A DNA stretch of 64,000 bases from an uncultured Oscillospiraceae bacterium (GTDB taxonomy: Bacteria > Bacillota > Clostridia > Oscillospirales > Oscillospiraceae), in the NCBI GenBank assembly GCA_944385665.1, contig CALWYB010000001.1:16046-80045 (forward strand). The letters run 5' to 3'. Below the pieces are notes generated by a model. That model ran no database searches and had not been told where the DNA came from. It worked only from the letters and a program-made list of their open reading frames with translations. Within the stretch, counting starts at the first letter, position 1; every line of letters begins with the position of its first letter. Shown here one piece after another: positions 47,575-64,000 of the stretch. A program made the position numbers and the translations under genes.

Positions 47575-47598
47575 CCGCGCTCAAAATTTTAAATTATA

Positions 47599-47646
47599 AA
47601 ATCCAGCAAGAAACGAGGTTCTCTCGCTTCTTGCTGGATTTTTCTC
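47599..47646 (+). terminator. Intrinsic terminator after the HAD gene
   Basis: ATCCAGCAAGAA with CGAG pairs with CTCG and TTCTTGCTGGAT across a five-base loop, then a T run. Confidence 0.88.
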
Positions 47647-47704
47647 TTTTCACCCAAACCCACGGCTCTTTGGTCCGAATTTTCCGGTGCTGTCGTTCAG
47701 ACCA

Positions 47705-49012
47705 TTAATCGGGAAACTGCGCCAGATCAACAGAATATATTTTGGCCGGACGCCCACGCAAATTCAATTGTCGGTTGTACTCCACCTTGGCTACCCCCGC
47801 TGTCTCCAGTTTATTAAGAATCCGGGACGCACTGCGGGTCGTTACATTTAAGAAAAACGCCAGCTCCTCTGAGGAGAGTGTACAGGCCCCCTTCTGGCGG
47901 AGAACTGCGCGGATGCGGCTTAGATAGAGGGGAGAGATCCCCACCTTTTCGCTCAGCTGATAGAGAGCCGGATCGGGAGAATCACTATACACGATGCGCC
48001 GCTCACTGGAGAGCGGTCCGATGAGCTGATTGTCATCCGTCACAATGAACGTTGCTGTCGTGCCAAGCTGCTCCGCCTGCTTTAGAGCCCGGTGCCCGTT
48101 GCGGTGCGCCTCCATCACGCTGCTGGAGCACCCCCAGCCGATACACACGGGAAACGGCAGCCGCTCAGAGAGAAACGCCGCCATGGGGCTGACCGTATAC
48201 TGCTGCGTGAGCTCCTTCAGCACGGAGATATTTGTGGTCAATTCGCACCAATTCTCCTGGTGATAAAGCAAAAACGGCATCCCACACTGCTTGTTATATG
48301 CCTGAAGCGCATCCCATAATTGCTCTCGCTGCGGTCCTGAGAGTTTCTCCGGCGATTGAATGAAGCCAATGCACGCCGCTGTCTCCCGAATGGAGCGGGT
48401 ATCCAGCTGCAACAGGAGGTTTTGATAGGTCTCCAGCATAGTCTCCCGTGAGGGGGCAAGATAGTAGTGCCGGATCTGGTGTGCGTCAAAAAACTCCGTC
48501 ATACTGGCAAACCGGGTGACCAGCAAATCTACCGTTCCGCTGTCCCACAATTGCTTGTAGTAGGTCTGTAGGGGCTGGTACCAATCCAGAACATCAACAT
48601 TCTTCCAATCAATGGAGGCTGTTCCCAGCATGGGCGCATCGCTGCGCAAAAAGATGGATTCAAAATCCACAGGAACCTGGGGACGGTCAAAATAAACCCT
48701 TGAAAAATCGAGCTGGGGCTGCTGGACCGCCAGATAGGCAATTACTTTATAGTAGTCTAACGGGGAGAGATCAAAATAAGCGTGGGGGGTCTCCTCCACA
48801 TCCGGAAAAAACTTTCGTATCACATTGTAGGGATAGGACCCGCTGAACAGCAGTCCGTCAAATTGATTCTGGTTCTGTTCATATAGGAATTGCAGGTGCT
48901 GGGGCGATGTATAAGGCAAATACGTAATTTGGTTTTTCTTCCCGATCTCCTGGTCCAATTTTAAAATCCTGGCCAGGGACAATTCATTTGTAAAAATGCC
49001 GATTGAGTACAT
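47705..49012 (-). CDS. Probable transcriptional regulator with C-terminal winged helix
   Basis: I do not know this 435-residue family by name. The first 300 residues have the look of a sensor domain (SIGIFTNELSLARILKLDQE, QFDGLLFSGSYPYNVIRKFF), reminiscent of the PrpR N-terminal type, but no enzyme motif. Residues from about 345 look like a helix-turn-helix: TLSSEELAFFLNVTTRSASR, ILNKLETAGV, RGRPAKIY. It faces the M20/carrier operon and has its own consensus promoter, so it is the likely regulator of that operon. ATG 49012 is preferred; an ATG three codons earlier overlaps the AAAGGATGG site. The effector is unknown. Confidence 0.7.
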   Translation of the reverse strand: MYSIGIFTNELSLARILKLDQEIGKKNQITYLPYTSPQHLQFLYEQNQNQFDGLLFSGSYPYNVIRKFFPDVEETPHAYFDLSPLDYYKVIAYLAVQQPQLDFSRVYFDRPQVPVDFESIFLRSDAPMLGTASIDWKNVDVLDWYQPLQTYYKQLWDSGTVDLLVTRFASMTEFFDAHQIRHYYLAPSRETMLETYQNLLLQLDTRSIRETAACIGFIQSPEKLSGPQREQLWDALQAYNKQCGMPFLLYHQENWCELTTNISVLKELTQQYTVSPMAAFLSERLPFPVCIGWGCSSSVMEAHRNGHRALKQAEQLGTTATFIVTDDNQLIGPLSSERRIVYSDSPDPALYQLSEKVGISPLYLSRIRAVLRQKGACTLSSEELAFFLNVTTRSASRILNKLETAGVAKVEYNRQLNLRGRPAKIYSVDLAQFPD

Positions 49013-49046
49013 AGCTTCCATCCTTTTTTATTCCATTCTCACAAGT

Positions 49047-49075
49047 ATTATAGAATAATTGCGTTTGATCAGCAA
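49047..49075 (-). promoter_or_regulatory. Promoter of the regulator gene
   Basis: On the minus strand TTGCTG (49070-49075) and TATAAT (49047-49052) are 17 bases apart. Confidence 0.65.
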
Positions 49076-49250
49076 CAGATTTCTTATTTTTTCCACTTTC
49101 CGTGTTCTATTTTTCATCTCAAATCTTTTGGTTTTGCCATTAAACAGAAAGTATTGATCACAATATGCAATAAATTCATTTGCTTTATACAGTTTTGGCC
49201 ATTTACCTTTGTAAAAAACAGAGAAAACCTCTCCATTCTGCAAGTTGTGG

Positions 49251-49280
49251 TTGACACCTCTTTCATTGTGTCTGTATACT
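49251..49280 (+). promoter_or_regulatory. Promoter of the second M20/carrier operon
   Basis: TTGACA (49251-49256) and TATACT (49275-49280) are 18 bases apart. The leader to ATG 49368 is about 80 bases. Confidence 0.65.
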
Positions 49281-49367
49281 ATCTTTAGTATTTCCGAAAC
49301 ATGTCTTTAATTGTCTTGAATGTTCTGTAACATGAGGGCAACGAATTTGCAGAAAGGAGTGGGGAGC

Positions 49368-50804
49368 ATGAATGCTCAAAAGGCACAGGCATTAACTGCT
49401 GTGGATCGGTATCAAGATCTGCTGTGCGAAGTAAGCGACAAGCTGTGGGATCATCCGGAGATCGGATTTCATGAGAGCTATGCCGCCGAACTGTATTGTT
49501 CTACGTTGAACGAGCTTGGCTTTCAGGTAGAGAAAAACTTGGCCGGAATTCCGACCGCCTTTTCCGGAAGCTATGGAGAGGGAGGGCCTGTCATCGGGTT
49601 TCTGGGCGAATTTGATGCCCTGCCTGAACTGAGCCAACAAGACGGTGCTTTGAGCCGCTGCCCGGTACAGGAAGGCGCCCCCGGCCACGGGTGCGGTCAT
49701 AACCTGCTGGGCGTGGGTTCTCTGGCTGCCGCACTGGCGGTCAAGGAGTACCTTCAGAACAACAACCTTCCCGGTACGGTAAAATTCTTCGGCTGTCCCG
49801 CGGAAGAGGGCGGGTCCGGCAAGGGATTTATGGCCCGAAGCGGAGTATTTCAGAATGTGGACATTGCGTTCAGCTGGCATCCCGGCGAGGTAAACAGCGT
49901 CTCCACGGAAGGAACCATGTCCAATTACCAGATCTGCTATCATTTTCACGGCATCTCCTCCCACGCCGCTATGGCTCCTGAACTGGGACGCAGCGCCCTG
50001 GACGCCCTGGAGCTGATGAACATCGGCGTCCAATTCCTTCGCGAGCATGTCCCTACCGATACACGAATTCACTACGCTATCACCAACACCGGCGGCAGCG
50101 CGCCCGGTACCGTTCAGCCCTATGCCGAGGCCGTATATCTGCTGCGCGCCGTACATCCCGAACAGCTTATTGACCTGTATGAGCGGGTTAACCAGATCGC
50201 CAAGGGCGCAGCCATGATGACCGGCACCACGGTGGAAATCGAGTTTATCAAAGCCTGCTCCAATGTGCTGATCAACAGCGAACTGAATTGCGTGATGCAG
50301 AAGAATCTGGAGGAAGTTCCTCCCACTGAGTTTGATGAGGCCGATCTTCAGCTGGCCCGTGAGTATCAGAAGACATTTTCCAAGGGGAAAACCTATTACG
50401 ACACGTTGGTGGACGAGGTAACCAACTCGAACTTGAAGACGGAATTGCAGGCCAAAGCGGACGAGCCCATCCACGCAGGCGTCATGCCTCTGGCCCAGGA
50501 GCGGCAGGGCTTTGTCTCTTCCGATGTGGGCGACGTCAGCTGGAACTGTCCGGTGGCACAGATCAACGGCGCCACCATGCCTGCCGGTGTGGCTATGCAC
50601 TCCTGGCAAATGGTGGCGGTAGGCAAAACTCCCATGGCCAAAAAGGGCATGCTCCATGCCGCAAAGGTCATGGCCGCATCCGCGATTGATGCTTTGGAAG
50701 ATCCCAGCGTGGTACAGCGTGCCAAGGAAGAATTGCAGCGCCGCACCGGCGGAAAACCCTATCGCTCCCCCATTCCCCCCGAGGTCCAGCCTAAGCTTCC
50801 CTAA
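49368..50804 (+). CDS. M20-family amidohydrolase, AbgB-like
   Basis: The 478-residue protein carries E81-FDAL, H107-GCGH111 and PAEE at 144-147, the M20 zinc and catalytic residues. The long form with EGAPGHGCGHNLLG and the C-terminal VGDVSWNCPVAQ resembles AbgB, which cleaves p-aminobenzoyl-glutamate. Other substrates of the same shape (acyl amino acids, indole-acetyl conjugates) are possible. It is longer than the M20 enzyme at 2967 (389 residues) and clearly a different branch. ATG 49368 follows AAAGGAG. It is first in an operon with an SLC13-like carrier. Confidence 0.87.
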   Translation: MNAQKAQALTAVDRYQDLLCEVSDKLWDHPEIGFHESYAAELYCSTLNELGFQVEKNLAGIPTAFSGSYGEGGPVIGFLGEFDALPELSQQDGALSRCPVQEGAPGHGCGHNLLGVGSLAAALAVKEYLQNNNLPGTVKFFGCPAEEGGSGKGFMARSGVFQNVDIAFSWHPGEVNSVSTEGTMSNYQICYHFHGISSHAAMAPELGRSALDALELMNIGVQFLREHVPTDTRIHYAITNTGGSAPGTVQPYAEAVYLLRAVHPEQLIDLYERVNQIAKGAAMMTGTTVEIEFIKACSNVLINSELNCVMQKNLEEVPPTEFDEADLQLAREYQKTFSKGKTYYDTLVDEVTNSNLKTELQAKADEPIHAGVMPLAQERQGFVSSDVGDVSWNCPVAQINGATMPAGVAMHSWQMVAVGKTPMAKKGMLHAAKVMAASAIDALEDPSVVQRAKEELQRRTGGKPYRSPIPPEVQPKLP

Positions 50805-50897
50805 TCAACGGCTTCTTCCCCTCGTTTCCACGATTCAGAGAGAAAATTTCCCTTTGTAGACTGCGCTTACTTGAAATAACTAACAGGAGGAACGACG

Positions 50898-52175
50898 ATG
50901 TCTCAGATTACAATTTGCCTTATCATCTTCGTGGCAATGATCGTACTCTTCTTCATGAACAAGATCCCCATGTCCTTTACCGCCATCGGAGCTATGATGC
51001 TCCTGGTACTGACTGGATGCTTGGATGGAAGCAGCGCCATTGCGACCTTCGGCAGCTCTACCGTCATTACCATGGCGGCTATGTTCGTGGTTGCCGCCGG
51101 ACTCAGCCGCACCCAGATGATCAACCACATCACCAAACTGCTCTATCGGATCACCGATGGTTCCTTTACCAAGGTGCTGGCTTGCTACGTTCTGGTCACC
51201 TGCCTGCTGGGCCAGTTCGTCCCCAGCATTGTGGCCCTGTTCGCTCTAGTACACCCCTTGGTCCAGAACATGTGTGACCGAATGAATATCAGCCCTTCCA
51301 AGATGATGTTCCCTATCGCGATGGCCACTGTTTCTACCAGCTTCATCATTGAGCCCATCGGTCCTTATGCCGCCTGGTATGTCACCCAGAACGGCTTTAT
51401 GGAATCCTATGGCTGGACCGGAACCCACCTGAATATGTGGAGCGAAACCAGCGTATTTCTCCCGGTTGGTATTCTGACCCTCCTGTGGGCTATCTTCGTT
51501 CTGCCCCGCATGCTGCCTGACACCCCGGAGCGCCCAATCGCCGCGATTGGCGGCCGCTCTCTGCAGGAGAAAGAACCCCTGAGCCCTGTGCGTGAGTTCC
51601 TTGGCTATGGCGTTTTTGTTGTGGTCATCATTTGCCTGATGCTGGGCTTCTCCTCCTGGAAAGTCACTCTGACCGGCGCGGTCATTCTGGTTGCCTCCGG
51701 TGTGCTCACTGAGCGGGAGGCCATTGACAATCTGAATCTGAGCACTGTGCTGCTCTACGTAGGCGTATCTGCCTTTGGCGAGGGTCTGGCTCAGACCGGC
51801 GCTGCGGAAATGATCGGTGACGGCATTGCCCATCTGCTGCAGGGCGTGACCAACGGCTACATTGTCGGCTTCGTGTTCTACATGGTCAGCTTCCTGATGA
51901 CCTCCCTGCTGTACAACCGGGCCGTCAGTACGGTTCTGACCCCTGTGGCTGTGATTACCTGCAGCTCCATCGGCTGCGATCCCCGCGGTCCTGTCATCCT
52001 GTGCGCCCTGGCCACTATGTCCTCTCTGATCACCCCCATGGCCACCGCCGTGGTGCCCATGGCCATGAACGCCGGCGGATACAGTGCAAAGACCATCCTC
52101 AAGGCCGGTATTCTCCCCGGTATCCTGCGTGGTGTCGTTGGCACCTTGATTGCCATGACCCTCTTCCCCATGTAA
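50898..52175 (+). CDS. SLC13/citrate-type anion carrier
   Basis: The 425-residue protein has ten to twelve hydrophobic segments in the arrangement of the DASS/ion-transporter superfamily (CitMHS, SLC13 and ArsB relatives): FATFGSSTVITMAAMFVVAA-like start of the first inverted repeat, PSKMMFPIAMATVSTSFIIE, and VSTVLTPVAVITCSSIG in the second. Such carriers move di- and tricarboxylates or related anions. AGGAGG precedes the ATG, 94 bases after the M20 gene. By context it probably brings in an anionic amide that the M20 enzyme then splits. Confidence 0.82.
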   Translation: MSQITICLIIFVAMIVLFFMNKIPMSFTAIGAMMLLVLTGCLDGSSAIATFGSSTVITMAAMFVVAAGLSRTQMINHITKLLYRITDGSFTKVLACYVLVTCLLGQFVPSIVALFALVHPLVQNMCDRMNISPSKMMFPIAMATVSTSFIIEPIGPYAAWYVTQNGFMESYGWTGTHLNMWSETSVFLPVGILTLLWAIFVLPRMLPDTPERPIAAIGGRSLQEKEPLSPVREFLGYGVFVVVIICLMLGFSSWKVTLTGAVILVASGVLTEREAIDNLNLSTVLLYVGVSAFGEGLAQTGAAEMIGDGIAHLLQGVTNGYIVGFVFYMVSFLMTSLLYNRAVSTVLTPVAVITCSSIGCDPRGPVILCALATMSSLITPMATAVVPMAMNAGGYSAKTILKAGILPGILRGVVGTLIAMTLFPM

Positions 52176-52556
52176 GTCAAAGGGATTTGACTTTCAGCTC
52201 CCTGTCATCCCCAGTTTGCAGTCTCCTTTTCTCCACCTATATTTAAAGGGAAACCCAACGGATTCTTCTCTCTGTTTTGGAATATGAGCGCACTGAGCAG
52301 TTCCCCTCTTCTGTACAGTGAATGCTCAGATCAGACGATTCCATCCCGTCTGCATATCACTCACACCGATCGGATCGCATTATCCGATCGGTGTGAGTTT
52401 TTTTGCCTTGGTACGCTGTTTTGCTTGACCTTCCCCCCGGGGGAAGGTGTATGCTTCCAGCTGTTCCAGGAAAATCTAACAAGGTCCCATCCGTCCCCGC
52501 TCCCCCGCCTGTTTTGCCCGGAGAAGAAAAAATTCTTTGAATGGGAGGCCAGCCTC
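52176..52556. other. Intergenic region before the TetR promoter
   Basis: It contains the terminator listed next and a purine/pyrimidine-mixed stretch (about 52410-52556) in which I see no gene. Confidence 0.5.
52360..52404 (+). terminator. Strong intrinsic terminator
   Basis: A perfect 16-bp stem (52360-52375 with 52382-52397), loop CGCATT, followed by seven T. It closes the M20/carrier operon. Confidence 0.92.
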
Positions 52557-52585
52557 TTGACCGGAAAAACCGGGGCGATTATACT
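52557..52585 (+). promoter_or_regulatory. Promoter of the TetR/efflux operon
   Basis: TTGACC (52557-52562) and TATACT (52580-52585) are 17 bases apart. Confidence 0.75.
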
Positions 52586-52604
52586 ATATGACAACTTGTC
52601 ATAT
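52586..52604. promoter_or_regulatory. TetR-type operator, 19-bp perfect palindrome
   Basis: ATATGACAACTTGTCATAT is a perfect palindrome (9+1+9) that begins directly after the -10 box and covers the predicted transcription start, the usual place for autorepression by a TetR dimer. Confidence 0.8.
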
Positions 52605-52609
52605 TTTTT

Positions 52610-52617
52610 GGGAGGTG
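52610..52617 (+). promoter_or_regulatory. Ribosome binding site of the AUA-start TetR gene
   Basis: GGGAGGTG lies nine bases before ATA 52625. No ATG, GTG or TTG in the TetR frame lies within reach of it. Confidence 0.7.
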
Positions 52618-52624
52618 AACCGCC

Positions 52625-53251
52625 ATACCTAGTCCAACCTTTTTCCATCTGCCCCAGGCCAAGCGGGAACGGCTTCTCCAGTGTGCCCGGGAAGAATTCT
52701 CCCGGGTCTCCTTTGACGAGTCCTCCATCAACCGCATCGTCCGCCAGGCGGAAATATCCCGGGGCAGCTTCTACATGTACTTTACCGACAAGGAGGATCT
52801 GTTCCGCTATCTGCTGCAATGCTATCTGGATGAGCTGACCCGGATGCTTCAAACGCTGCTGGACCGGGAGCAGGGAGACCTGTTTGCCGCCTTCGGCGCC
52901 CTGTTCCAGCAGCTGTTGGAGCAGCGGGACAGCCCCTCTGCCCAGCAGTTTCAGGCCATTCTCCACCGCAATGCGGGAGTGCAGCAGGGGGCGCTGCTGC
53001 GCTCGGCGGGAACCCACTCCCTCTTTGCCGCCCTCTCCGGTCACATCGACCGCTCCCGCCTGTCCATCCGCCGGGAGGAGGATCTGGAGGATATGTTCCA
53101 CATTTTGACCAGCGTCACCGCCCCCGCCCTGTGCGCCGCCCTGTCCCACGCCGACCCCCAGATCGCTTGGAACCGCCTCCAGGCACAGCTGGACATTCTC
53201 CGGCGGGGCATGGAGGCCCGGCACGAACCAGCCCCATCCCATCACGAGTAA
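52625..53251 (+). CDS. TetR-family regulator with apparent AUA start codon
   Basis: Read from ATA 52625 the product has 208 residues and starts with the typical PSPTFFHLPQAKRERLL, then the helix-turn-helix DESSINRIVRQAEISRGSFY and MYFTDKEDLF. Such TetR proteins normally begin M-P-S-P-T-F-F, so the start ATG seems to have become ATA. The first in-frame ATG (52775) would delete the whole DNA-binding domain, and the frame is closed upstream by TGA at 52616-52618. A strong promoter, operator and ribosome binding site are in place. The gene leads the efflux operon and probably represses it. It may be translated weakly from AUA, or be newly inactivated. Confidence 0.75.
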   Translation: MPSPTFFHLPQAKRERLLQCAREEFSRVSFDESSINRIVRQAEISRGSFYMYFTDKEDLFRYLLQCYLDELTRMLQTLLDREQGDLFAAFGALFQQLLEQRDSPSAQQFQAILHRNAGVQQGALLRSAGTHSLFAALSGHIDRSRLSIRREEDLEDMFHILTSVTAPALCAALSHADPQIAWNRLQAQLDILRRGMEARHEPAPSHHE

Positions 53252-53267: not shown

Positions 53268-54923
53268 ATGGAAACAAAAGAACAACTGCAAACCGTCCCT
53301 GTGTCCTCCGCGCCCGCCCAGGCGCCCCAGCAGGACAGCGCCCCCACCTGGAAGGCGCCCAAGAAGAAACGCCGCTGGCCCAAGATCGTCCTGCTGGTGG
53401 CCGTCATCCTGGCCGCCTTGATCTTCTTCGTGGTGCGTTCCATGCTGGGAGCCGGGAAAAACCTGCTGGCCGGAGCCTATCTCACCGCCACCGCGCAGAT
53501 GCAGGAGATGACCGTCTCCGTATCCAGCACCGGCACCATCCAGCCCATCGACTCCTACAATGTCAGCGGCATGGTCACCGGTGAGGTGCTGGAGGCCCCC
53601 TTTGAGGTGGGCGACCAGGTGGAGAAGGGGGACGTGCTCTACCGCATTGACCCCGGCAGCGCTCAGACCACAGTGCAGCAGGCCCAGCTTGCGGTCCAGC
53701 AGGCCCAGCTGAGCTACGACTCCATTGCCGACGGTCTGGCCCCCAAGGCCTCCGGCGCCGGTGTGGTCCAGCAGCTGCACGTAAAGAAGGGCGACCTGGT
53801 GACCGCCGGCTCTCCCATTGCGGACATCTCCGACACCTCTACCATGACCCTCACCCTTCCCTTCCAGTCTGCCGACGCCGCCCGCATCTCGGTGGGCGAG
53901 GCCGCCACGGTAACCCTGGCCGGCACCCTGGAGACCCTGTCCGGCACGGTGGAGTCGGTGGCTGCCGCCGACCTGGTGGGCAACGGCGGCGCTCTGGTGC
54001 GCCAGGTGAAGATCCGGGTGCAGAACCCCGGCGCTCTCACCACCGCCACCACCGCTACCGCTAAGGTGGGCGACATCGCCTGCGCCGGCAGCGGCACCTT
54101 TGAGGCCAACCTCAGCCAGACCATCACCGCCGCCGGAAGCGGCGAGGTGGTTTCGGTAAACACCTCTGTGGGCAGCCGGGTCTCCCCGGGACAGGTGCTG
54201 GTCAACCTGGGCGGCTCCTCCGCCGAGACCTCCCTGGAAAACGCCGCCCTCTCCCTGCAAAATGCCCAGCTCTCCCTCCAGAATGCCCAGGACGCCCTGG
54301 AGAACTACACCATCACGGCTCCCATCTCGGGCACTGTGATCGAGAAGAACTTCAAGGCCGGGGACACCATTGACAACAACAGCCTCACCGCCGCCGGGGG
54401 GACTCTGGCCGTCCTCTACGACATGTCCACCCTCACCTTTGAGATGAAGATTGACGAGAAGGACATCAACAAGATCCAGGTGGGCCAGGAGGTCACCATC
54501 ACCGCCGACGCGGTGGAGGGCGTCACCTTCTCCGGCGTGGTGGACACGGTGAACATCAACGGCACCACCGTCAGCGGCCAGACCAACTACCCTGTCACGG
54601 TGGTCATCAACGATCCTCAGGACCTGAAGCCTGGGATGAACGTCTCCGCCGACATCATCGTGGAACGGGCGGGCACGGTGCTGTGCGTCCCCGTGGACGC
54701 GGTAAACCGGGGCAGCGATAAGCCCACCGTCCAAGTGGCCGGAGAGGGCGCCCTGGATGAGGAGGGCAATGTGATCGACCCCTCCAAGCTGGAGACCCGG
54801 GAGGTCACCCTGGGCCGCAACGACAACGACAACATTGAGATCACCAGCGGCCTGACAGAAGGCGATGTGGTGGTTTGGGCCAACGAGGTCTCCAATCCTC
54901 TGGCCTCCATGATGGGGATGTAA
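53268..54923 (+). CDS. Efflux periplasmic-adaptor-like protein (MacA/HlyD family)
   Basis: The 551-residue protein has a basic cytoplasmic start (APKKKRRW), one membrane helix at about 40-58, then the membrane-fusion layout: a barrel part (VSVSSTGTIQPIDSYNVSG, GDQVEKGDVLYRIDPGS), helical hairpins rich in glutamine and alanine, a second lipoyl-like motif (VGSRVSPGQVL) and a C-terminal beta-barrel (DLKPGMNVSADI). Gram-positive members work with a MacB-like ABC pair to export peptides or drugs. It has two hairpin regions and is longer than usual. It follows the TetR gene by 16 bases. Confidence 0.88.
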   Translation: METKEQLQTVPVSSAPAQAPQQDSAPTWKAPKKKRRWPKIVLLVAVILAALIFFVVRSMLGAGKNLLAGAYLTATAQMQEMTVSVSSTGTIQPIDSYNVSGMVTGEVLEAPFEVGDQVEKGDVLYRIDPGSAQTTVQQAQLAVQQAQLSYDSIADGLAPKASGAGVVQQLHVKKGDLVTAGSPIADISDTSTMTLTLPFQSADAARISVGEAATVTLAGTLETLSGTVESVAAADLVGNGGALVRQVKIRVQNPGALTTATTATAKVGDIACAGSGTFEANLSQTITAAGSGEVVSVNTSVGSRVSPGQVLVNLGGSSAETSLENAALSLQNAQLSLQNAQDALENYTITAPISGTVIEKNFKAGDTIDNNSLTAAGGTLAVLYDMSTLTFEMKIDEKDINKIQVGQEVTITADAVEGVTFSGVVDTVNINGTTVSGQTNYPVTVVINDPQDLKPGMNVSADIIVERAGTVLCVPVDAVNRGSDKPTVQVAGEGALDEEGNVIDPSKLETREVTLGRNDNDNIEITSGLTEGDVVVWANEVSNPLASMMGM

Positions 54924-54926
54924 GCT

Positions 54927-55685
54927 ATGGGACACCTCATTGAATTTCAGCAGGTCTATAAGATCTATCAGATGGGCGACACCCAGGTCCACGCCCTGGA
55001 CGGAGTGAACTTCGCCATCGACAAGGGGGAATTTGTAGCCATTGTGGGCCAGTCCGGCTCGGGCAAGTCCACCGCCATGAACATCATCGGCTGTCTGGAC
55101 GTGCCCACCAGCGGGCGCTACTTTCTGGGGGGCGTGGATGTGTCCACCATGGATGACGACCAGCAGGCGGTGATCCGCAACAAGATGCTGGGCTTTATCT
55201 TCCAGCAGTACAACCTGATTCCCAAGCTCAATGTGCTGGAAAATGTGGAGCTGCCCCTGCTCTACGGCGGTGTGCCCCAGCGGGAGCGGCGGGAGCGGGC
55301 CCTCAGCGCCCTGGACCGGGTGGGTCTGGCCGACAAGTACAAAAACCGCCCCAACCAGCTCTCCGGCGGCCAGCAGCAGCGGGTATCCATCGCCCGGGCG
55401 CTGGCGGGCAACCCCTCCGTCATCCTGGCCGACGAGCCCACCGGCGCCCTGGACTCCCACACCAGCCGGGAGGTCCTCTCCTTTTTGAAAAAACTCAACC
55501 GGGAGGGGGACACCGTGGTGCTCATCACCCACGACAACTCCATCGCCGTACGGGCCAGACGGATCATCCGCCTTCAGGACGGGCAGATCATCTACGACGG
55601 CGACGCCAGCGATCCCCAGGCCGTGGTCCAGCCCAGAATGGATGACGACGAGGACGACGATCTGTGTGGGGAGGTGGGAGACTGA
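54927..55685 (+). CDS. MacB-type ABC transporter ATPase
   Basis: The 252-residue protein has Walker A GQSGSGKST at 41-49, Q-loop FIFQQYNLIPKL, signature LSGGQQQRVSIARAL, Walker B VILADEPTGALDS and the H-loop VLITHDN. It is of the MacB/LolD/FtsE type that powers export or mechanotransmission through FtsX-like permeases. It lies three bases after the adaptor gene; its stop shares one base with the permease start, so translation is coupled. The acidic tail (DDDEDDDLCGE) is unusual for the family. Confidence 0.93.
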   Translation: MGHLIEFQQVYKIYQMGDTQVHALDGVNFAIDKGEFVAIVGQSGSGKSTAMNIIGCLDVPTSGRYFLGGVDVSTMDDDQQAVIRNKMLGFIFQQYNLIPKLNVLENVELPLLYGGVPQRERRERALSALDRVGLADKYKNRPNQLSGGQQQRVSIARALAGNPSVILADEPTGALDSHTSREVLSFLKKLNREGDTVVLITHDNSIAVRARRIIRLQDGQIIYDGDASDPQAVVQPRMDDDEDDDLCGEVGD

Positions 55686-56947
55686 TGGGTGTGAAGCAAT
55701 CCTTCTTTCTGGCCCTCAAGTCCCTGGCCACCAGCAAGGTCCGTGCCCTGCTGACCATGCTGGGCATTATCATCGGCGTGGCCGCCGTCATTATCATCAT
55801 CTCCCTGGGCGACGGCATGCAAAAGCTGATGAGCGACTCCTTTGAGGAGCTGGGGGCCAATCTCATCCAGGTATCGGTCCAGTCCAGCGGCTCCTCCCGG
55901 GAGGTGTCCATGGACGATATGTACGACCTGGTGGAGAAAAACCCCAAGTATCTCTCCGCCGTCAGTCCCTATATCACGGTCTCCTCCGCCTCTGCCCGTA
56001 CCCCCGGCGACACCTTCACCCCCTACAGCGTGGTGGGCGTCAGCGAGGCCTACGATGAGATCCGCGCCCTCACCGTGGAGCAGGGCCGCTTCCTCCAGTA
56101 CGTGGATGTGCTCCGCTCCCAGAAGGTGTGCGTGGTGGGCTCCTATATCAGCAAGGAGTACTATAACGGCAGCGCCCTGGGCAAGACCCTGGGGCTCAGC
56201 GGCTACAACTACACCATCGTAGGGGTGCTCTCCGAGAGCGCGGAGTCCCGGAAAGGCTCGGCCGATGACCTGGTCATCATCCCCTACACCAACGCCCAGC
56301 AGCTCAACAGCGCTCTGGGCAGCTCCGGCTCTCCCTCCAGCACCATGATGAGCGGCGGCATCCTCACCGGCGTGGGCATGGACACCTATATGTTCAGCGG
56401 CACCAGCAAGGACACCGCCTCCACCTCCCGGGGCGTCATTGAGAACTTCCTGGACAAGGTGTACGGCGACGACCAGAAATATATGGTCATCACCTCGGCG
56501 GAGATGCTGGACATGATGAACACCATGATGGACACCATGATGGTGGTACTGGTGGCCATTGCCGGCATCTCCCTGCTGGTGGGCGGCATCGGCATCATGA
56601 ATATCATGCTGGTCTCGGTCTCGGAGCGCACCCGGGAGATCGGCATCCGCAAGTCCCTGGGCGCCAAACGCCGGGACATCCGGGGGCAGTTTATCATCGA
56701 GGCGGGCACCACCTCCGCCATTGGAGGCGTCATCGGCATCGTGTTGGGCATTGCCCTGGCCAAGGTGGCCGGCACCCTCATCGACGGGCTGATGAACTCC
56801 GGGTCCACCCAATTTACTGCGGTGGTCTCCATTCAATCGGTTGCCCTGGCCTTCGGCGTATCGGTGGGCGTTGGCATTCTCTTCGGCTATCTGCCCGCCA
56901 ACAAGGCCGCCAAGCTCAACCCCATCGACGCGCTGCGCTACGAATAA
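55685..56947 (+). CDS. MacB-type ABC transporter permease
   Basis: The 420-residue protein has the MacB/FtsX topology: one helix near residues 20-45 (TMLGIIIGVAAVIIIISL), a large external domain (about 60-275), then three helices at the C-terminus with GGIGIMNIMLVSVSERTREI and the final FGYLPANKAAKLNPIDALRYE. ATG 55685 is preferred to a start seven codons earlier because it follows the GGGGAGG site. It completes the tripartite efflux system with the adaptor and ATPase. Confidence 0.92.
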   Translation: MGVKQSFFLALKSLATSKVRALLTMLGIIIGVAAVIIIISLGDGMQKLMSDSFEELGANLIQVSVQSSGSSREVSMDDMYDLVEKNPKYLSAVSPYITVSSASARTPGDTFTPYSVVGVSEAYDEIRALTVEQGRFLQYVDVLRSQKVCVVGSYISKEYYNGSALGKTLGLSGYNYTIVGVLSESAESRKGSADDLVIIPYTNAQQLNSALGSSGSPSSTMMSGGILTGVGMDTYMFSGTSKDTASTSRGVIENFLDKVYGDDQKYMVITSAEMLDMMNTMMDTMMVVLVAIAGISLLVGGIGIMNIMLVSVSERTREIGIRKSLGAKRRDIRGQFIIEAGTTSAIGGVIGIVLGIALAKVAGTLIDGLMNSGSTQFTAVVSIQSVALAFGVSVGVGILFGYLPANKAAKLNPIDALRYE

Positions 56948-61141: not shown

Positions 61142-61446
61142 CCTACGTCCCTCCTTTGTGAACCATCAGCAAATGTGTTAAGATGCCCCTCTTCCATCTT
61201 GTTGGTGACATTATATCATATTGACTATAAACTTTCCATATTGTTTTCCCTAATTTTATTGCATTTGCACAATTTTGCACATAACAAGGTAATTTGTCGG
61301 TTATCTTTATGTTTTTCCCGGACACAACCGCGCCCCGCGGAGCCGAACAGGCATGGCGGGGCGAAATTTCCATTATCTGTATGTTTTTGTCCACTTCCAG
61401 GCCGATTTCCTCCATAGGTGAAAGACTTCATAAGGAGGATGATCCT
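61142..61446. other. Divergent intergenic region with repeats
   Basis: About 305 AT-rich bases. TTTGCACA occurs at 61264-61271 and 61274-61281, ten bases apart. TTATCT-N-TATGTTTTT occurs at 61301-61316 and 61373-61388. Between the latter lies a hairpin CGCCCCGC (61331-61338) with GCGGGGCG (61356-61363). No gene is seen. Confidence 0.65.
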
Positions 61447-61914
61447 ATGGCAAGCAATTATACGGAACACTACGGCCTGTGCCAGTGGGAGCCCACGGAC
61501 CAGGTGCTGCGCACCGAGTTCAATCAGGACAACGCCAAAGTAGACGCCGCTCTGGACACCCTGGAACAGACGCTGACCCAGCACAGCGAGGAATTGGAAT
61601 CCATCGCCAAGCTGGGCAACTGCACCGTCTATCACACCACCTATACAGGGAAAAATCAATATTCCAAAAGCCTGACTTTTCCCGGAAAACCTATGGTGGT
61701 CATGGTAGCTGACACAGAGGTGGGAAACGGCTTTATCGCCTGGCGAGGGATGACGGTGGCCATACCCTTCCATCAGGAATATGGCATTGTTAGGCTCTCC
61801 TTGAGCTGGGAAACCAATTCCCTCTCCTGGTCCTATGAGGATGACTTCGATTGGGCAATGAATGCGTCGGGAACATCCTATCAGGTGATCGGACTGCTGG
61901 ACATGAGCGTATAA
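61447..61914 (+). CDS. Small protein of unknown function, phage-tail-fibre-like N-terminus
   Basis: The 155-residue product starts ASNYTEHYGLCQWEPTDQVL, then RTEFNQDNAKVDAALDTLEQ, a start I associate with phage tail-fibre-type and other uncharacterised gut Clostridia proteins, in which it forms a coiled helix. The rest is beta-rich (VYHTTYTGKNQYSKSLTFPG, NGFIAWRGMTV) and ends in LLDMSV. No signal peptide or enzyme motif. ATG 61447 follows AAGGAGG. No other phage genes are nearby, so it may be a stand-alone relic or a domesticated gene. Confidence 0.7.
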   Translation: MASNYTEHYGLCQWEPTDQVLRTEFNQDNAKVDAALDTLEQTLTQHSEELESIAKLGNCTVYHTTYTGKNQYSKSLTFPGKPMVVMVADTEVGNGFIAWRGMTVAIPFHQEYGIVRLSLSWETNSLSWSYEDDFDWAMNASGTSYQVIGLLDMSV

Positions 61915-61978: not shown

Positions 61979-64000
61979 TTAGTGGAAAACCACATCTACA
62001 TTCACCGTGAACTCCAGGTCACGGCCAGTCTCATCAGTCACGATGATCTGGCGGCCATGGATGATGAAGGAAGAATAGTTGCCCCAAGAGGAGACAACGC
62101 AATTGTTCTGAGCCAGCTCAGCGGAAACGGCCTCACGCACGCCGTTCTCGCTGTATCTGACACCGGAAGCGGGGTTATACTCTACAGCGATAGTGTTGGC
62201 GCCATAGTTGACCTCCACAGTGTAGGCATCCCGCTCGCCATTGTCGGTCTCAGCATAAGCAGGAATCGCGCTGTTCAGAACCACGTACTCAGCAGTACCC
62301 TTGTCGTTCAGCACGGCAGCGATCTGGCCCTTGAACGCAGCACCGGCAGCCAGGGTGTCAAAGGCCTCGTTGAAGCTGTCGCATTTCACAACCTCGGTCT
62401 CCACGACAGACCCATGCCAAGAATTAGCCTTCACATTCTGAATCACATAGATGGGAGCGCCGTTGGCGATGGTCAGGCCATAGTCGTCACCGGTGATCCA
62501 CAGGGTGTTGCCAGTGGCAGACAGCTCAGTCTTACCAATGCTAGCGCCATTGACACCCACATTGACCTGATAGATCTCATTGTTATCGGTGTACGCATAG
62601 TGCTTATCAAACTCATCATTGCCGTAGATGAAGTCCTCGAACCAGTTGTCCTTCCACATACCGTCCTTCAGGACAACAGCACCGATTACAAAGCCGTCCT
62701 CGTCATAGGTCAGCTCCAGCATAGAACCCTCGCCAACCGCAACAGCGGAGCAAATGGTATTCTGCAGAGTGTCGAACACGTCCTCATACTCAGCCTTTAC
62801 GGTCAGGACCTCTTCCTCGCCGTCCACAATGGCCTTGAAGTCCCAGAACAGATAGCCGTCCTCGGTGTACTCATTGCTGGCTTCGGTATCAATGCCGTAG
62901 GCATAACCGGTGGCATTGACGTCATCGCCGATCACGATAGCGCCGATCACATAGTGATCCTCATCGTACACGACGAACACGCTCTCAGCGATCTTATATT
63001 TGCTATCGCTGGTATCCTTGCCAATCTTGAGATCCACATTCTGCACGCCGGTGTAGACCTTATCCACCCCGTTGATGATGGAGCTATCATAGTCGTTGGT
63101 GCCCAGGCCGACGGTGATATAGATGGAATCATCGTTGCCATAAGCAATATTCTTTTTATCGTTCAGCTTGTTAGAGCCGTCGCCCTCCAGGCGGACGCTG
63201 GCGCTGTTGATGGTGTTGCGATCACCATACTGCTTGGTGTAGTCCAGCCAGTTGTCCGCAGGAGTCAGGGTGTACACGCCGTCGGAGTCCACGGTGTAGG
63301 TGAACCACTTGTTGTAGTGGGACATGCTACCGGTGTAATCATAAGCTTTCAGATCGGTATAGCCATTACCCTCAACGATGTTGTCGTTGGTGGCATCCAC
63401 ATTGACCTCGATTTTGGTCATGGTGCCGTCCAGGAAGATGGCAGCGGCCTCAGCGGTCTCAGTACCCAGGTGGGTCATGGGACGGTCATAGCCGGTCAGG
63501 AACAGATACTGGTCAGCGCTGTCCACAATCTCGGTGCCGATGACATAGCCATAGGCATCCAGATACAGGTTGTAGGTGTTGTCCAGAGCGCCCTTATTAT
63601 AGGTCTCCAGGCACTTCTCACCGTAGTAACCAATATTAGTCATCTTGCCCATCATGGCGTAGTCGTACTGGGTGCCGTCAGCAACCAGGTACTTCTGAGC
63701 GGAGTACTTGGTCAGCTCCACATTGGAAAGGACCTCGGGCTCGCTGATGACAGCGACCTCGTACTTGCCCTTGCTGTTCTCAGCCACGTTGACCAGAAGC
63801 ATGTCGCCGTCCTTCACGTCGGCGGCCTCCTCCACGTCAGCGGCCTTCACAGTACCAACAATGTTCTTGTTAGTATAGTAATGCAGAGACAGCTCGTCAC
63901 GCTTGGCATTATAGTCAGCGTCAGCCTTGGCCATGTAGGTGTTGATGGTGGTGATGACGATCTCCTCGTCCACGTTGTCCACGAACACCTGAGTCAGAGC
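61979..64000 (-). CDS. Large acidic surface protein, 5' part outside window
   Basis: The frame is open from the stop at 61979 to the window edge (674 codons) and no start is visible. The product is rich in aspartate, tyrosine and glycine with few cysteines, has no membrane helix, and shows repeated stretches of the type YVIGAIVIGDD, FVIGAVVLKDG and YVIGTEIVDS, as in repetitive beta-structured surface proteins. SLH repeats are not in the visible part; they would have to lie in the missing N-terminus. Base use is more even and the codons look strongly biased, as in an abundantly made S-layer protein. I assign it as a probable S-layer or surface protein without a known activity. Confidence 0.7.
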   Translation of the reverse strand, partial: ALTQVFVDNVDEEIVITTINTYMAKADADYNAKRDELSLHYYTNKNIVGTVKAADVEEAADVKDGDMLLVNVAENSKGKYEVAVISEPEVLSNVELTKYSAQKYLVADGTQYDYAMMGKMTNIGYYGEKCLETYNKGALDNTYNLYLDAYGYVIGTEIVDSADQYLFLTGYDRPMTHLGTETAEAAAIFLDGTMTKIEVNVDATNDNIVEGNGYTDLKAYDYTGSMSHYNKWFTYTVDSDGVYTLTPADNWLDYTKQYGDRNTINSASVRLEGDGSNKLNDKKNIAYGNDDSIYITVGLGTNDYDSSIINGVDKVYTGVQNVDLKIGKDTSDSKYKIAESVFVVYDEDHYVIGAIVIGDDVNATGYAYGIDTEASNEYTEDGYLFWDFKAIVDGEEEVLTVKAEYEDVFDTLQNTICSAVAVGEGSMLELTYDEDGFVIGAVVLKDGMWKDNWFEDFIYGNDEFDKHYAYTDNNEIYQVNVGVNGASIGKTELSATGNTLWITGDDYGLTIANGAPIYVIQNVKANSWHGSVVETEVVKCDSFNEAFDTLAAGAAFKGQIAAVLNDKGTAEYVVLNSAIPAYAETDNGERDAYTVEVNYGANTIAVEYNPASGVRYSENGVREAVSAELAQNNCVVSSWGNYSSFIIHGRQIIVTDETGRDLEFTVNVDVVFH

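Follow-up and report, generated by a model that had tools for sequence, protein, structure and literature searches.

A TetR-family repressor gene in the window (the whole stretch of 64,000 nucleotides analyzed here, from an uncultured Oscillospiraceae bacterium) carries ATA at its family's start position, at 52625 to 52627 on the + strand. This codon is unique among the 52 family loci compared, and the frame behind it is under purifying selection. We posit, with modest confidence, that the AUA most likely does work as a start, though a weak one, and so holds down the amount of an autorepressor. Based on anatomy and conservation, the TetR protein would bind a palindrome overlapping its own promoter and thereby repress a tetR-macA-ABC-macB operon. 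The initiator tRNA would start at the AUA at 52625, enabled by the extended Shine-Dalgarno sequence GGAGGUGA at good spacing, an arrangement that appears to be the same as that at the AUC start of infC in the window genome. Weak initiation would then yield less repressor than an AUG would give, and the scarce repressor would be expected to leave the efflux-type operon leaky and easily induced. If the AUA is used, the known regulators tuned by near-cognate starts would gain a TetR repressor that controls an efflux-type operon and belongs to a lineage of gut Clostridia, and the case suggests that a single start-codon base could set pump expression.

The repressor gene, its control region, and its operon

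The tetR frame (52625 to 53251, + strand) is open for 208 codons up to a TAA at 53249 to 53251, with no stop or frameshift inside. An in-frame TGA (52616 to 52618, + strand) shuts it upstream, and just ACC GCC lies between this TGA and the ATA, which is itself one base away from ATG. The usual start codons are absent nearby in frame: the next ATG, GTG, or TTG is the ATG at 52775 to 52777 (+ strand), codon 51, which has no Shine-Dalgarno sequence and lies inside the DNA-binding HTH domain. Because TetR_N covers residues 17 to 61 (in a query beginning at codon 2), a start at codon 51 would lose most of the DNA-binding domain, and an annotation limited to ATG, GTG, and TTG would yield a 158-residue protein of just this kind; the gene is an example of what homology-based start checking can find. 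If codon 1 starts translation, the protein matches TetR_N (PF00440) at 6.7e-12 and 45.4 bits against a cutoff of 24; the C-terminal ligand domain matches TetR_C_19 (PF17924) at 5.8e-9 and 36.8 bits against a cutoff of 26.8, and the best solved relative is 3nrg (8.5e-18, residues 1 to 91). An earlier note on this DNA had described a normal TetR frame with ATA in place of the family's start methionine and a first in-frame ATG 50 codons on, at the cost of the DNA-binding domain, and our reading of the sequence agrees with it on each point.

The same note had spoken of a good promoter and a perfect operator, and both descriptions hold. A sigma-70-type promoter, TTGACC-N17-TATACT, lies at 52557 to 52585 (+ strand) and matches the consensus at 10 of 12 positions; a scan of 1.15 kb returned 2 promoter-like sites against a shuffle mean of 0.6. 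The operator, TATGACAACTTGTCATA, lies over the expected transcription start (52587 to 52603, + strand) and forms a perfect 17-base palindrome about one center base. An operator of the type TGACANNNTGTCA is found at most 150 bases upstream in 47 of the 52 family members, and a looser form is found in all 52. The closest relative, genome G012, has the same two promoter hexamers and the same operator, and the sequence farther upstream barely aligns. By this anatomy, the TetR protein would be a local autorepressor, with binding to the operator predicted. The genome holds a single exact copy of the 17-mer. The operator matches closest to it carry 3 mismatches, and their number resembles that of the reversed control (6 rows in all, against 5), so a regulon outside the protein's own operon was rejected at that sensitivity. 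A terminator-like hairpin at 52359 to 52398 (+ strand), made of a 17-pair stem and a T run behind it, stands after the upstream gene and separates it from the tetR operon; the terminator scan gave 1 site where shuffles gave 1.3 on average, and the count by itself is thus no evidence.

Behind tetR follow, consecutively and on the + strand, genes for a MacA/HlyD-type adaptor protein (53268 to 54923; Pfam HlyD_3 and HlyD_D23, with TIGR01730 above its cutoff), a MacB-type ABC ATPase (54927 to 55685; Pfam ABC_tran, with MacB the best NCBIfam match, under its cutoff), and a MacB/FtsX-type permease (55664 to 56947; Pfam MacB_PCD and FtsX), whose first start in the list of open reading frames is GTG. 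This is the layout of a MacAB-like operon, and the earlier designation of the operon as efflux type holds. The named equivalogs were not reached, either for MacB (NF007826, 286.9 and 179.5 bits against 966, in a model of a fused ATPase-permease) or for MacA (NF008606, 67.1 against 342). In its TetR_N domain, in its palindromic operator over its own promoter, and in the order of its genes (tetR, then adaptor, ATPase, and permease), the system resembles TetR regulators of MacAB-like efflux operons; it differs from them in that the start codon of tetR is ATA. Searches of plasmid records with blastn and of viral contigs found no relative.

The start position and its surroundings in related genomes

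The earlier note had proposed comparing the start codon in related genomes. The TetR protein was used to retrieve 64 loci (L001 to L064), of which 52 matched from the N terminus and were scored, and the codon at the tetR start position is ATG in 33, GTG in 15, TTG in 3, and ATA in the window genome alone; some scored loci may be near-duplicates, for example, L045 and L047. The unscored loci were distant, with a match that did not begin at the N terminus (L002 to L005, L031 to L034, L060, and L061), had their upstream sequence cut off (L058), or shared a contig with L062 (L035). A usual start therefore stands in 51 of the 51 other loci, and the loci fetched included no second strain of the species. 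The tetR of G012 (L006; 83% identical) has GTG at the start position, the next two full-length relatives (about 55%) have TTG and GTG, and L059, which is 61% identical over 64 residues only, has ATG. The G012 gene also holds an in-frame ATG 3 codons and a GTG 8 codons upstream of its GTG, together with a weak Shine-Dalgarno sequence, and its own start is therefore uncertain.

How common is a missing start in this genome? A survey of 464 kb of the window genome (the window and 20 further stretches) against 1.34 Mb of G012 gave 171 pairs of frames that align over 100 codons or more, a set that includes some antisense shadow frames, so that the true genes are fewer. A usual start missing in the window genome and present in G012 was flagged in 2 pairs, tetR and L092, and the latter was discarded since its 35%-identity match comes from deep inside both frames and is not a start. 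The reverse case, a start missing in G012, occurred in 0 of the 171 pairs. A missing start is rare in the compared part of the genome, and tetR is the sole real case. Non-AUG starts are not significantly more frequent in the repressor family than in the sampled genes: they stand at 18 of the 51 other repressor loci and in 40 of the 171 genes (Fisher P = 0.10, with loci that are not independent).

Judged by its substitutions, the gene looks alive. The dN/dS of tetR against G012 is 0.13, next to 0.126 for macA, 0.045 for the ATPase gene, and 0.106 for the permease gene, which points to purifying selection, and the promoter and operator have been kept. In relative-rate tests with four outgroups, 5 to 6 amino acid changes were private to the window branch, against 6 to 11 on the branch of G012, so the window branch is not accelerated.

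The extended Shine-Dalgarno sequence GGAGGTGA (52611 to 52618, + strand) stands 6 bases ahead of the ATA, at the right distance, as had been noted before; it has an 8-base match and a duplex of -16.1 kcal/mol, computed for the leader against the consensus 16S rRNA end. A duplex at least this strong was found in 12 of the 171 sampled genes, a contiguous match of 8 bases or longer in 20, and GGAGGTG 5 to 9 bases ahead of the shared start in 5. Each sampled gene was represented by the best of its shared starts among aligned codons 1 to 60, a choice that biases the comparison in favor of ordinary genes rather than against them. Among the 52 family loci, the tetR Shine-Dalgarno sequence ranks 7th in strength. 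The other in-frame candidates tested, up to codon 51, all lack one: the duplexes come to -0.7 kcal/mol for CTG at codon 9, -2.5 for AAG at codon 13, -4.1 and -2.5 for ATC at codons 35 and 38, -5.8 for ATA at codon 44, and -5.0 for ATG at codon 51.

Two candidate features of the leader were considered and rejected. The first, a hairpin that would cover the ribosome-binding site (52608 to 52637), is nothing special, given that the leader folds no better than its shuffles (z of +1.19, with 179 of 200 shuffles folding equally well or better) and that its fold energy of -9.2 is the 7th weakest among the 52 loci; the predicted fold pairs most of the Shine-Dalgarno sequence (unpaired 0.26), which is also the case at many other family loci. 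A leader peptide or reinitiation frame, running from the ATG at 52588 or the GTG at 52615 to a TAG at 52630 to 52632, has no stop at that place in G012, where the frame continues to 37 codons.

Near-cognate starts and competing readings of the ATA

The arrangement at tetR has a counterpart elsewhere in the same genome. In a genome-wide search, GGAGGTG-N7-AT(A/C/T), a pattern picked after the tetR site had been seen, occurred at 14 places against 32 in the reversed control and is not enriched. Just two of the 14, tetR (208 codons) and infC (176 codons), head frames of more than 100 codons that lack a usual start both upstream and in the next 25 codons; two further places, L195 and L202, open shorter frames (59 and 57 codons) in which no usual start occurs at all. 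The infC gene of the window genome (L160, G000:C4:40803 onward) has ATC behind GGAGGTG-CTTTCCC, that is, the same layout as at tetR. Of 59 congeneric infC matches listed, 30 loci were read (L160 to L189), and all 30 have ATC behind GGAGGTG, with a spacing of 7 bases in 26 and 6 bases in 4. In 10 of the 30, the window genome and G012 included, the open frame upstream holds no ATG, GTG, or TTG; in the other 20, usual codons lie upstream at varying places. Counting the ATC as 0, the first usual codon downstream is codon 29 in 29 loci and codon 18 in one. Based on the constancy of the ATC in the loci read and on the 10 loci without a usual upstream start, it is very probable that infC translation in this genus is initiated at a near-cognate codon in just such a GGAGGTG setting. 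By analogy, the use of AUC at infC would carry over to the use of AUA at tetR, with the distinction that the ATC is conserved across the loci read and the ATA is not. In E. coli, near-cognate infC starts serve IF3 autoregulation. For S. aureus, the same role is called likely (PMC13009471).

Our repressor is operon-local and has its ATA in one genome only, in contrast to the repressor gene ccpN, whose product is not a TetR protein. The two are alike in encoding a DNA-binding repressor from an AUA behind a strong extended Shine-Dalgarno sequence, and the non-canonical start of ccpN is reported to be conserved between S. aureus and B. subtilis (PMC13009471). In the same study, ribosome profiling of S. 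aureus pointed to AUA starts in infC, ccpN, and citZ, extended Shine-Dalgarno motifs were predicted at infC, cvfC1, and ccpN, and reporters with the starts of ccpN (AUA), citZ (AUA), and cvfC1 (AUU) reached about 10% of AUG in poor medium, with the ccpN AUA reporter reaching up to 30% in rich medium. The tetR gene would work like such known near-cognate-start regulators, minus the conservation that infC and ccpN show.

The statement in the earlier note that AUA is one of the weakest starts proves to be bound to context. For E. coli, PMC12864459 cites Hecht et al. 2017 for an ATA start that reaches 1% of AUG at most, to be set against the roughly 10 to 30% seen in S. aureus behind a strong Shine-Dalgarno sequence. 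According to further reports, an ATG-to-ATA change in E. coli rpoS, arising in laboratory culture without selection, lowered the protein up to 5-fold (PMC12864459), and suboptimal GUG and UUG starts tend toward compensation by stronger Shine-Dalgarno sequences (PMC5622118). In acid-selected ATG-to-ATA mutants of Listeria rsbW, translation persists at a reduced level; as proposed for tetR, the AUA means less of a negative regulator and more of the output that it restrains, with the differences that rsbW encodes an anti-sigma factor, not a DNA-binding repressor, and that the selection took place in the laboratory (PMC13068326). A weak repressor start likewise leads to higher basal operon expression in E. 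coli gut commensals whose lacI starts with GTG, where mouse-gut fitness also rises; that start is GTG and not AUA, the repressor belongs to the LacI family, and the effect was tested experimentally (PMC11445065). An AUA-started TetR gene was not found in the accessible parts of the open-access literature searched, which is weak evidence of absence.

In total, weak use of the AUA is the best-supported reading, since it is consistent with purifying selection, an unaccelerated branch, a strong extended Shine-Dalgarno sequence, and an infC ATC in the same setting; the earlier proposal that the start keeps repressor levels low may stand in this conditional form. Counting against it are the facts that the ATA is private and known from one draft genome, that the Shine-Dalgarno sequence is strong but not unique and mostly paired in the predicted fold, and that the gut study of weak repressor starts saw non-ATG starts less often in regulators unrelated to carbohydrates (PMC11445065). 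Given its absence from the 51 other family loci, unlike the ATC of infC, the ATA is young on any view. Could it then be a recent lesion or polymorphism of this strain or lineage, owed to drift or to an advantage of derepressing the pump, with the repressor nearly absent and decay beginning? We regard this reading, which takes up the earlier suggestion of a gene that has just lost its start, as possible but on the unlikely side. The codon is one base from ATG and private among the loci compared, and ATG-to-ATA changes do arise in regulators, as rsbW (PMC13068326) and rpoS (PMC12864459) attest. The signs of decay that this suggestion would lead one to look for are absent, however: relaxed selection is not seen in either dN/dS or relative rate, the 208 codons hold no stop or frameshift, operator and promoter are intact, and the Shine-Dalgarno sequence is unusually good. 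These objections are weakened by the consideration that a very young lesion would carry none of such defects.

A sequence or assembly error, with ATG or another usual start as the true codon, strikes us as rather improbable. The codon comes from a single draft assembly (2.63 Mb in 132 contigs, 95.5% complete and 2% contaminated), and the usual starts in the 51 other family loci fit an error as well; yet among the 171 frame pairs the tetR start alone is missing, apparent split frames are no commoner in this assembly than in G012 (2 against 4), and a random error has little reason to strike a gene with GGAGGTG at 5 to 9 bases, an arrangement shared by so few of the sampled genes. It is highly improbable that translation begins elsewhere, at the CTG of codon 9, at the ATG of codon 51 or beyond, or through ribosomes that reinitiate once they have read a short upstream frame. 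Alternative start codons do exist in the sequence, and the CTG at codon 59 has a Shine-Dalgarno-like AAGGAGG just 2 bases ahead (-12.0 kcal/mol). However, codon 1 is the start position of the homologues, codons 9 and 51 lack a Shine-Dalgarno sequence, starts at codons 51 and 59, within or at the end of TetR_N, would remove most of that domain, and the ATG at 52588 precedes the expected transcript start, with the equivalent frame of G012 running to its 37 codons.

Returning to the weak-start reading, we speculate on one extension of it, which we hold to be decidedly doubtful. An infC-type start (GGAGGUG-N7-AUA) might tie repressor synthesis to IF3 stringency and to the state of the ribosome, so that the pump operon would respond via translation initiation besides ligand binding. 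Were IF3 or initiation disturbed, e.g., by ribosome-targeting compounds, the repressor level would shift and the pump operon would respond.

Neighboring DNA in the nearest relative

The stretch of the window from 47577 to 52551, about 5 kb, goes unmatched at the corresponding place in G012, where synteny is otherwise kept; it contains genes for an amidohydrolase (49320 to 50804) and a DASS-type symporter (50898 to 52175). Near the end of the window, a Pfam search of the minus-strand open reading frames at 61225 to 61773 and 61979 to 63988 gave no hit. The segments 61334 to 61583 and 63399 to 64000 match several places between 530 and 670 kb of G012 that lie about 4.1 kb, or twice that, apart, which suggests that this part of G012 is a tandem array of 4-kb units.
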